A DNA stretch of 58,940 nt from Candidatus Symbiothrix sp. (lineage in GTDB: Bacteria > Bacteroidota > Bacteroidia > Bacteroidales > Azobacteroidaceae): NCBI GenBank assembly GCA_031272095.1, contig JAISUM010000072.1, forward strand, positions 1-58,940, in the 5' to 3' direction. The notes beneath the pieces were generated by a model that saw only the letters and a list, made by a program, of their open reading frames with translations, was not told the origin of the DNA and did not search any database. Made by a program: the position numbers and the translations under genes. Below are positions 32,909 through 51,387 of the stretch, piece after piece; within the stretch, counting starts at the first letter, position 1; the number at the start of each line of letters is the position of its first letter.

Positions 32909-34040
32909 CAATTTCGACGACATTCGTCCTTATGCCGACGCAGAAGTGCCGGCAGTCATCGCCGATTTATTAAAAAACAAGGACTTTATGGAGGTTTTGG
33001 AGTATATTTTCCCCAAGAAGACCACCGAAGAAATCGTCGCCAACTGGCAGACGATCAAAAGCATACACGATTTTCAATATGGCATTTCCGTTCCGACGGT
33101 GCTGTCGGTGATCCGTCGCACCTCTACCTCTATTGATTTTTGCGGATACGAGCAGTTGCAGAAAAATCAGGCATACACTTTCATCTCCAACCACCGCGAC
33201 ATTGTGGTTGATGCGGCTGTGTTAAGTACGATGTTGGCGCATCACGGACACGACACGGTGGAGATTGCGATTGGCGACAACCTTTTGTTGCGCCCTTGGG
33301 TGAAAGATTTGGTGCGCCTCAATAAAAGTTTTATTGTCAAACGAAGCGTCGAAATTCGTCAGATGTTGGAAGTTTCGATGCACCTTTCCCGTTATATTCA
33401 TCACACGGTCGGTGAAAGAAAGCAGTCGGTTTGGATTGCGCAACGCGAAGGACGCGCCAAAAATTCGGACGACCACACACAGGAAAGCGTAATCAAGATG
33501 TTGGCGATGGGTGGCGACAGCGATTTCCTGTCAAACATTAAAGCTTTGAACATTACGCCGCTATCAATCTCTTACGAATACGATCCATGCGACTATTTGA
33601 AGGCAAAAGAATACCAGCAAAAGCGCGACCAAGCCGATTACAAAAAAGCCTATTCCGACGATCTGTTGAATATGCAGACCGGCATTCTGACCAATAAGGG
33701 GCGCATTTGGTTTCAGATCGGACAGCCGATTGGGCAGTCGCTCGAACAGATTCCCGCCGGTCTGCCGCGCAACGAATTGGTCAAAACAATTTGTCGCGTG
33801 ATTGACCGTGAAATTTTTCGCAACTATCATTTCTATCCTATCAATTACATCGCCTACGACCGTCTGTGGGGTGGCAATCGCTTTGCCGCATATTATACCG
33901 CTACCGACATAGCCACCGTCGACAACTATTGGCAACAGCAGTTAGCAAAAATAGATTTGCAGGACAAAGACTTGCCATTTCTGACCGAAAAAATATTAGA
34001 AATGTATGCCAATCCGCTAAAAAACGCAATTAGTGGTTAG
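32892..34040 (+). CDS. PlsC-type glycerophosphate acyltransferase
   Basis: A 382-residue protein with an acyltransferase domain. The catalytic HX4D motif is in FISNHRDIVVDAAVL (near residue 98), followed by LNKSFIVKRS and WIAQREGRAKNSDD, the equivalent of the substrate-binding EGTR block. No membrane span is obvious. It probably acylates glycerophosphate or lysophospholipid; the exact acceptor cannot be told. It is co-translated with ddl. The final residues ISG and the TAG stop are encoded by the first units of a TTAGTGG repeat, so its native C-terminus may have been altered. Confidence 0.82.
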   Translation: METADNNFDDIRPYADAEVPAVIADLLKNKDFMEVLEYIFPKKTTEEIVANWQTIKSIHDFQYGISVPTVLSVIRRTSTSIDFCGYEQLQKNQAYTFISNHRDIVVDAAVLSTMLAHHGHDTVEIAIGDNLLLRPWVKDLVRLNKSFIVKRSVEIRQMLEVSMHLSRYIHHTVGERKQSVWIAQREGRAKNSDDHTQESVIKMLAMGGDSDFLSNIKALNITPLSISYEYDPCDYLKAKEYQQKRDQADYKKAYSDDLLNMQTGILTNKGRIWFQIGQPIGQSLEQIPAGLPRNELVKTICRVIDREIFRNYHFYPINYIAYDRLWGGNRFAAYYTATDIATVDNYWQQQLAKIDLQDKDLPFLTEKILEMYANPLKNAISG

Positions 34041-34061
34041 TGGTGAGTGATTAGTGGAGAG
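34030..34061 (+). repeat. TTAGTGG array (left end of 34-kb element)
   Basis: About 32 bp of TTAGTGG/TGAGTGA units that include the acyltransferase stop codon. An inverted counterpart lies at 34499-34538. Confidence 0.85.
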
Positions 34062-34090
34062 TGATAGTATCACTGCCGGTGATGCTATCA
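34062..34090. repeat. TATCAC hairpin, copy 1
   Basis: TGATAG...CTATCA outer stem and ATCACT/GGTGAT inner stem around a 3-base loop. The same structure recurs at 50681-50712 and 51391-51420 with compensating changes in the inner stem. Confidence 0.8.
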
Positions 34091-34103
34091 GTAAAAGCCG
34101 CTT

Positions 34104-34131
34104 GTCATAGCGGACTTGATCCGCCATCCCC
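34104..34131. repeat. REP-like palindrome GTCAT-stem-ATCCCC
   Basis: GTCATAGCGGA, loop CTTGA, TCCGCCATCCCC. Nearly identical to 51433-51460. It is in inverted orientation to the palindrome at 34462-34490. Confidence 0.8.
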
Positions 34132-34198
34132 ATACTGTCTGAACTTTGATTGTCTGAACCTTGATTTTCATAAGATTTCCTTGATTGCCTTGATTTAT

Positions 34199-34358
34199 AC
34201 ACCCTTATTTATTAAGGTTCCCTTAGTAGCCGGATATAAAACGCTCCATCATCCTGCCCTTATTCCATTATTAATCTTTGGAAAATAAGGGAATAAGGGT
34301 AAAAAATTGCAAACATTCAACTCCAAGCTACTAAGGGCGCCCGCAGGAATAAGGGTGT
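34199..34358. repeat. Nested inverted repeat, 160 bp
   Basis: Outer arms 34199-34229 and 34328-34358 are both 31 bases long; their outer 10 (ACACCCTTAT / ATAAGGGTGT) and inner 10 (CCCTTAGTAG / CTACTAAGGG) bases match exactly, with an unmatched middle of 11. An inner pair, CCCTTATTCC (34257-34266) and GGGAATAAGGG (34289-34299), nests inside. No open frame of note. The remainder of the intergenic gap (34359-34461) holds only A/G-rich low-complexity sequence. Confidence 0.75.
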
Positions 34359-34461
34359 CTGTTTTTACCGCGAAGGCAAAGAAGGCAAAAAAAGGGGGAT
34401 GGGGTCTGAACTGTGATTTTAATGTGATTGAAATGATGAATATGATTGTTTAACGATTAGC

Positions 34462-34490
34462 AGGAGATCCCGCGTCAAGCGCGGGATGAC
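34462..34490. repeat. REP-like palindrome, stem-ATGAC orientation
   Basis: ATCCCGCG, loop TCAAG, CGCGGGAT, then GACGCG: a perfect 8-bp stem. Head-to-head with the copy at 34104-34131. Confidence 0.8.
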
Positions 34491-34498
34491 GCGCCCCC

Positions 34499-34538
34499 AC
34501 TCACCATTCACCACTAATCACTAATCACTAACCACTAT
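34499..34538 (-). repeat. Inverted TTAGTGG array (right end of 34-kb element)
   Basis: On the plus strand it reads CACTAATCACTAATCACTAA and similar units, the reverse complement of the 34030 array. It encodes the last residues and TAG stop of the aldo/keto reductase on the minus strand. Confidence 0.85.
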
Positions 34539-50591: not shown

Positions 50592-50665
50592 GGCTCCGTA
50601 GCTCAACTGAATAGAGCATCTGACTACGGATCAGAAGGTTGGGGGTTTGAATCCCTCCGGAGTCA
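50592..50665 (+). tRNA. tRNA-Arg (ACG)
   Basis: A 74-base tRNA: acceptor GGCTCCG with CGGAGTC, D-arm GCTCAACTGAATAGAGC, anticodon loop CTACGGA giving ACG, T-loop GGTTTGAATCC, discriminator A. CCA is not encoded. The ACG wobble A is normally deaminated to inosine by TadA. Confidence 0.95.
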
Positions 50666-50680
50666 CGAAAATCTTTTTTA

Positions 50681-50719
50681 CTGATAGTATCACCGCGAGG
50701 TGAAGCTATCAGTTTTTTT
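50681..50719 (+). terminator. TATCAC hairpin copy 2, terminator of tRNA-Arg
   Basis: CTGATAG (50681-50687) pairs with CTATCAG (50706-50712), inner stem ATCACC/GGTGA, followed by seven T. It is a copy of the repeat hairpin at 34062 and 51391. Confidence 0.8.
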
Positions 50720-50734
50720 ATTACCGGTGATTTT

Positions 50735-50783
50735 CCACTAATCACTAATCATTTACCACTAATCAATCACCACTAATCACTAA
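50735..50783 (-). repeat. Inverted TTAGTGG array
   Basis: CCACTAATCACTAATC and similar units over about 49 bp, just upstream of the bacterioferritin promoter; reverse complement of the array at 51358. Confidence 0.85.
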
Positions 50784-50856: not shown

Positions 50857-51360
50857 ATGATTTCCAGAGAAAAATCAATCGAACTGCTCAACAGAGCAGT
50901 AAATGACGAACTGACGGCGGTACATCAATATATGTACTTCCATTTTCGTTTAGACGATATGGGTTACGACCTGCTATCGACCTATTTCAAACGCACCGCC
51001 ATCGAAGAAATGATGCACATCGAGCAACTGGCAGAGCGTATTCTGTTCCTCAAAGGCGAAGTAGAAATGAAACCGTCGCACGCCGTCGAAAAAATTCACG
51101 ACGTGAAAGCGATGCTCGACAAAGCCGAAGCGATGGAAACACAGACCATTACGGACTATAATCAGTTTGCGCAGGAATGTGCCGCAGCATTAGACTCGGC
51201 TTCCAAAAAACTGTTTGAAGACCTGATTGTGCAGGAAGAACGCCACCAAGACCAGTTCGACACCGAAGTATCAAACCTCGAAACTTACGGCGACAACTAC
51301 CTTGCGCTGCAATCCATCGAACACGCCAAAAAAGCCTCTGCGGGAACACAAACCACTTAA
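50857..51360 (+). CDS. bfr: Bacterioferritin
   Basis: A 167-residue four-helix iron-storage protein that forms a 24-subunit shell. All ferroxidase ligands fall at the same positions as in E. coli Bfr: Glu18, Glu51, His54, Glu94, Glu127 and His130. The heme ligand Met52 is also present, so it is a heme-binding bacterioferritin and not a plain ferritin. The C-terminus ends TQTT at a TAA stop that touches the start of a TTAGTGG array. Monocistronic. Confidence 0.95.
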   Translation: MISREKSIELLNRAVNDELTAVHQYMYFHFRLDDMGYDLLSTYFKRTAIEEMMHIEQLAERILFLKGEVEMKPSHAVEKIHDVKAMLDKAEAMETQTITDYNQFAQECAAALDSASKKLFEDLIVQEERHQDQFDTEVSNLETYGDNYLALQSIEHAKKASAGTQTT

Positions 51361-51387
51361 TAGTGGTGAGTGGTTAGTGATGAGTGC
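51358..51387 (+). repeat. TTAGTGG array at bfr 3' end
   Basis: TAATAGTGGTGAGTGGTTAG and further units starting at the bfr stop codon. Confidence 0.8.

Follow-up and report, generated by a model that had tools for sequence, protein, structure and literature searches.

A gap between two convergent genes of Candidatus Symbiothrix looks like a stripped-down selfish element ending in seven-base repeats

What kind of sequence fills the half kilobase between two convergent genes of Candidatus Symbiothrix sp., in which both genes come to their end? The window (the whole stretch of DNA that was analysed, 58,940 nucleotides of contig JAISUM010000072.1) carries a gene for an acyltransferase (PF01553; 32892-34040, forward strand) and one for an aldo/keto reductase (PF00248; 34521-35483, reverse strand), and the stretch in question spans 34030-34538. 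It looks like a stripped-down selfish element ending in seven-base repeats. It is probably a non-autonomous foldback element, that is, a gene-less and repeat-loaded relative of elements in which an IVP gene is enclosed by inverted heptamer arrays. IVP stands for "23S rRNA intervening sequence protein" (PF05635/TIGR02436), a four-helix-bundle protein.

The outer bounds of the stretch are inverted TTAGTGG arrays, and its interior is full of nested inverted repeats. The left terminal array (34030-34061, forward) consists of TTAGTGG/TTAGTGA-type heptamers, and the right one (34497-34538, reverse) is its inverted counterpart. The terminal arms at 34031-34063 and 34505-34537 are 33 nt each, are 88% complementary, and both have a best period of 7. 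Scored as an inverted pair, they reach 23. By comparison, 2000 pairs with equal spacing, taken from the window, average 6.2, and only one of them equals the value of the arms, a draw that begins at 34015 and is again the element. Inside the left array, a TATCAC hairpin (module B, 34062-34096, unstranded), which is also present at other loci of the same genome, is followed by a REP-like palindrome (module C, 34100-34132, forward; palindrome at about 34104-34131). Module D (34137-34198, forward) has a GTCTGAAC cap and GATT repeats of about 9 bp. The nested 8-mer foldback of module E (34199-34358, unstranded) contains CCCTTATT/AATAAGGG repeats; its arms at 34199-34230 and 34327-34358 match at 78%, and an inner 16-nt pair matches at 94%. 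A short-period stretch of GCAAAGAAGGC (module F, 34359-34400, forward) and a second GTCTGAAC/GATT stretch (module D2, 34403-34450, forward) lead to another REP-like palindrome (C2, 34458-34494, reverse; palindrome at about 34462-34490), whose orientation is by eye opposite to that of C. The preliminary description had already reported the inverted arrays, the hairpin, the two opposed palindromes and the nested repeat, and all of them are present at these positions.

The predicted RNA fold of 34030-34538 has an energy of -194 kcal/mol, compared with -130.8 +/- 6.8 kcal/mol for 100 shuffles (z -9.3), and the terminal arrays pair with each other in this fold. No Rfam family matched the stretch at gathering thresholds, and no rRNA was listed by Rfam anywhere in the window. 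The terminator and promoter scan gave about the same result as shuffled sequence, with 1 terminator-like site versus 0.8 in shuffles.

Both flanking genes take their last residues and stop codons from the terminal arrays, as had been proposed from the letters. The acyltransferase ends in ..KNAISG*, with its TAG stop supplied by the left array. Among its homologues in the same genus, 19 of the 29 shown end in ..N-x-L-S/E.. followed by a few residues, and one (L150) is interrupted earlier. By eye, other short-period arrays lie right at the acyltransferase stop codons of three loci in other species (L133, with inverted 9-mers, L144 and L149), a REP-like insert lies at the end of the homologue at L141, and the remaining homologues shown have no array or insert at the gene end. 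The aldo/keto reductase ends in ..IDEI-VVSD*, and the last four residues together with the TAG stop come from the right array. Six of the 11 reductase homologues shown end in ..I-L plus 0-3 residues (L238 and L240-L244), three end differently (L237, L246 and L247), and one is interrupted earlier (L245). At L239, in genome G061, the reductase reads ..IMRI-NNDE* and is followed by a complete IVP gene with TAATGAA-type arrays. By eye, this reductase and that of the window enter the array at the same codon without gaps, and the array units differ. The preliminary description had also suggested a search for empty sites and for the ancestral C-termini of the two proteins. Homologous gene ends without the element were found; a syntenic empty site was not found among the relatives shown, in which the sequence beyond both genes differs. 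As the genes farther out are not the same in these species, the relatives show how the two genes end when the element is absent but do not amount to syntenic empty sites. No target duplication was noticed when the gene ends of the relatives were compared by eye, a comparison in which the arrays obscure the borders.

How often TTAGTG arrays meet stop codons was assessed by listing arrays of at least three units in the window and in the matching stretches of its own genome and comparing them with mechanically called ORFs of at least 100 aa. The 41 array rows correspond to 39 distinct arrays, because one of the stretches (L025) overlaps the window and duplicates two rows. Thirteen of the 39 arrays overlap a stop codon within 3 nt, and 18 lie within 30 nt of one, with the gene reading TTAGTG in 17 of these 18. 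The heptamer has a stop codon in every frame, and any ORF that enters an array must end there. The proximity of arrays to stop codons is therefore partly trivial, and comparing the genes with their homologues gives better evidence. Five ORFs near array pairs (L032 and L042) matched the Pfam families SPOR, FUR or PDT or gave no match. Elsewhere in the window, two outward-facing TTAGTG arrays (50680-50783 and 51367-51387) enclose a ferritin-like gene (50857-51357), with 7 nt between its stop codon and the second array. Just after a tRNA at 50592-50665 there is a TATCAC hairpin with T residues behind it.

The many arrays at stop codons and the strong predicted fold are also what would be seen if the arrays were ordinary heptamers grown by slippage, with a local role in translation stop, mRNA stability or termination. 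The inversion between convergent genes would then have arisen by template switching, and IVP genes would merely accumulate at such places. Intergenic direct repeats of heptamers are known in other bacteria, according to the accessible text of PMC4679880, which fits this explanation. The terminator scan, being near shuffle level, speaks against it, as does the behavior of the inner modules, which are multicopy and occur twice in nearly full order.

The copy number of the element was determined in the genome to which the window belongs, which is 87% complete. The preliminary description had proposed a search for further copies and had regarded confinement to this one locus as an argument against a mobile element. 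A query of 571 bases gave 116 matches in the own genome; manual merging reduced them to 39 further stretches, one of which (L025) is inside the window. Nine modules were mapped on these stretches and were found in many different combinations. Module E is present over at least 68 bp at 13 loci including the window; the other twelve have 83-98% identity, and four of the 13 end at a contig end. Another near-complete copy, in almost the same module order, is found on contig C92 (L009); it has arrays on both sides and starts at a stop codon. The element is real, multicopy and gene-less. The earlier proposal of a non-autonomous element inserted at gene ends holds as far as a multicopy, gene-less, foldback-type sequence is concerned; the stretch is, however, not one simple element but a mosaic, and its modules are also found on their own at other places.

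Such a mosaic could also be a chance pile-up, in which independent small repeats gathered in one permissive convergent gap and no single element exists. We consider this quite unlikely. As a pile-up would predict, single modules and many permutations of them are found in the own genome and in the genus, but nearly the full order is found again at C92, and all five gene-free array pairs shorter than 700 bp among the listed arrays face inward (window 34030, L009, L020, L027 and L030).

At least 25 of 58 genomes, the own genome included, have a match to element sequence when ten candidates are scored per genome, and the longest match outside the own genome among the matches listed is about 160 bases. 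Perfect TTAGTGN x3 arrays are found in six of 38 genus genomes, with 245 overlapping hits in the own genome, 46 in G022, 14 in G018, 6 in G004, 3 in G014 and 1 in G015. The reversed pattern cannot serve as a control here, since TTAGTGA gives a rotation of itself when it is read backwards. Neither PF05635 nor PF13366 nor any perfect TTAGTG array was seen in the two small, near-complete genus genomes of 1.0-1.2 Mb (G003 and G021). A link of this absence to genome reduction is only a guess, and several larger genomes also lack all three.

REP modules are dispersed through genomes of the same genus, and the window carries two REP-like palindromes in opposite orientation. Both features would suit a REPIN/BIME-type element moved by a RAYT transposase, with the arrays being secondary, and the preliminary description had mentioned a REPIN-like element as one option. 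This assignment was not borne out, and we now regard it as very unlikely. The own genome, at 87% completeness, gave no match to RAYT (PF01797). Some 330 bp, taken up by other modules, separate the two palindromes, and the outer ends of the stretch are heptamer arrays instead of REPs.

The arrays led us from the window to IVP genes. Inverted heptamer arrays flank IVP genes both in this genus and across several bacterial phyla. PF05635 was matched in 29 of the 38 genus genomes, in 28 of them above the cut-off. The search listed 79 hits, 59 of which were above the cut-off, and 48 loci were taken (47 above it, plus L104 from below), 46 of which had flanks long enough for scoring. A clear inverted array was defined as an inverted match of at least 12 between the flanks of a gene. 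By this measure, 42 of the 46 scored IVP genes have inverted arrays, compared with one of 85 genes at the acyltransferase loci and three of 46 genes of the window. Adding a broken gene (L082, 7.0) and a gene below the family cut-off (L083, 8.5), both without inverted arrays, gives 42 of 48. The genus arrays have units of 7-9 bp, with period 7 dominant and periods 8 and 9 in the minority.

The same pattern is seen in named genomes. These were scanned with an alignment of one IVP subfamily (A2), and the best 80 of 578 relatives were taken, so that the sample is the part closest to that subfamily; judged from sequence titles it covers about a dozen phylum-level groups, and two of its loci (L156 and L157) repeat genus loci. 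Inverted arrays flank 66 of the 79 scorable IVP loci in this best 80 of 578, versus none of 38 other genes there. Nearly all arms with a score of at least 10 have 7 as their best period, namely 54 of 56 on the upstream side and 58 of 59 on the downstream side. A clear inverted match is absent from 6 of 48 IVP genes in the genus and from 13 of 79 in the named genomes (best 80 of 578). All these counts take the loci as they stand and ignore kinship.

The two arms of a locus resemble each other, with a mean cosine similarity of 0.65 within a locus versus 0.06 between loci. The array unit also follows the sequence of the IVP (Mantel r 0.49, 0 of 2000 permutations, for 40 of the 48 loci, chosen for having arrays on both sides), a correlation that may reflect common descent of whole elements instead of recognition. 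Only one IVP gene was found in the own genome, and the arrays around it have periods of 15 and 8 bp and are not of the TTAGTGG type. This protein matched the Avd models with E values of 3.4e-6 (below the cut-off of the model) and 1.1e-9; the other IVPs tested gave no match to them. A single IVP chain with a solved structure was found, PDB 2RLD. At L055 (G000:C120, 1121-1215) a gene-less inverted array pair lies inside an apparent ligase reading frame and has the unit type of a nearby IVP element, and at L070 two gene-less inverted AATTGAG pairs (572-714 and 2726-2815) lie near an IVP element with AATTGAG units. The IVP reading frames of four loci (L074, L088, L092 and L101) continue into the downstream array and thereby acquire repeat-coded C-terminal tails.

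Several loci connect the window element with elements that carry an IVP gene. At L085 (G004), TTAGTGG arrays surround an IVP ORF that lacks its middle through an internal deletion, and another internally deleted IVP ORF lies between TTAATGA arrays at L103. Deletions of this kind are how a full element would be expected to become gene-less. At L011, a 24-residue IVP match (E 0.004) lies beside its array. No TTAGTGG arrays around a full-length IVP gene were found in the genus search, and the window element contains no IVP remnant by tblastn at E < 1. At a homologous junction between a kinase and a regulator gene, for which 26 loci were found, 16 were examined and 13 could be judged, three loci carry an IVP element (L296, L302 and L311), one has a clear gene-less inverted 7-mer pair with a score of 21 (L297), one has a single array (L305), and seven, including that of the own genome (L299), have no array. 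A further gene-less pair seen by eye at L301 scored 8.5, within the control range, and was set aside as doubtful. The presence of gene-less and IVP-bearing pairs at homologous junctions counts against growth by slippage, and so does the rarity of inverted arrays at control genes; we therefore judge that explanation unlikely.

The inner modules of the foldback element point to a second gene family. PF13366, which bears the Pfam name PDDEXK_3 and which we take to be the "GxxExxY" family, was matched in 12 of 38 genus genomes and gave no match in the own genome (87% complete). It gave 21 hits, of which seven fragments were left out and 14 were examined; 12 of the 13 scorable loci have inverted flanks. 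The GTCTGAAC/GATT sequence of module D is also present at three of the PF13366 loci (L110, L115 and L118), so that this module resembles the end of another gene-bearing element. Judged from such sequence likeness, the window stretch looks like a nest of gene-less ends.

In its build the window element is reminiscent of eukaryotic foldback (FB) elements, which have long inverted ends of short tandem subrepeats around a variable middle. The window element is bacterial and has a 7-bp unit, and the likeness is one of build, not of sequence. Like a MITE, it is small, multicopy and gene-less and has inverted ends; unlike a MITE, it ends in tandem arrays, and no parent IS or target duplication was noticed. 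It shares opposed palindromes with REPINs and BIMEs, but its outer ends are heptamer arrays and no RAYT was found in the own genome. With the IVP/inverted-array class it shares inverted 7-bp tandem arrays at both ends.

IVP genes are already known from intervening sequences (IVSs) of 23S rRNA. In the accessible text of PMC4990558, the IVS of C. burnetii is described as a stem cut by RNase III with an S23p ORF in its loop, tandem heptamers upstream of the ORF and ORF decay, and an older suggestion that IVSs are mobile is cited. The accessible text of PMC11270868 describes rRNA insertions of CPR bacteria that contain IVP ORFs, and that of PMC10053308 the resemblance of PF05635 to Avd of diversity-generating retroelements. 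The window element resembles an IVS in its complementary ends, which form a stem in the predicted fold; the tandem heptamers and the ORF decay reported in PMC4990558 are further points of likeness, and the ORF in the loop is matched by the IVP/array class, not by the window copy. In contrast to an IVS, the window element is located outside rRNA genes, with a protein gene on either side, has no IVP ORF (none at E < 1) and is loaded with other repeats. Intergenic 7-bp tandem arrays (TAACTGA and others) are described in Beggiatoaceae, Cyanobacteria and Bacteroidetes (PMC4679880, accessible text). These also lie between genes, but they are mainly direct repeats upstream of start codons, and the terms "four helix", "S23" and "intervening" are absent from the main text of that article as accessible. 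No link between IVP genes and intergenic inverted heptamer arrays was found in the titles and abstract openings of the open-access papers listed. What is new here is the association of IVP genes with inverted 7-9-bp arrays, and rRNA intervening sequences seem to be a special case of IVP/array elements.

For the foldback element of the window, a mode of propagation can be proposed. An IVP acting in trans may recognize the arrays in the form of either hairpin RNA or single-stranded DNA, and an IVP that does so would help the element to move or copy. Insertion at gene ends would be tolerated because the arrays offer stop codons in all frames, and the present copy would have no host function beyond supplying two gene ends. 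A wider proposal, which we offer tentatively and consider possible rather than probable, is a mobile foldback class that crosses phyla. Such elements would have no known transposase, and their sole gene would encode an Avd-like four-helix IVP able to recognize its own heptamer arrays. Like its relative Avd, the IVP would bind hairpin RNA and bring it to a reverse transcriptase in trans; rRNA IVSs would be those members of the class that had inserted into rRNA, and copies lacking the gene, like that of the window, would be carried along.

The interest of the window element lies mainly in the IVP/array class to which it led. IVPs are widespread, and the literature covered gives no function for them. 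The location of most of the examined IVP genes between inverted heptamer arrays, together with the gene-less copies, offers a common and testable explanation for the IVP family and for the scattered rRNA intervening sequences. IVP/array elements may also account for part of the heptamer repeats that have been reported across many genomes.
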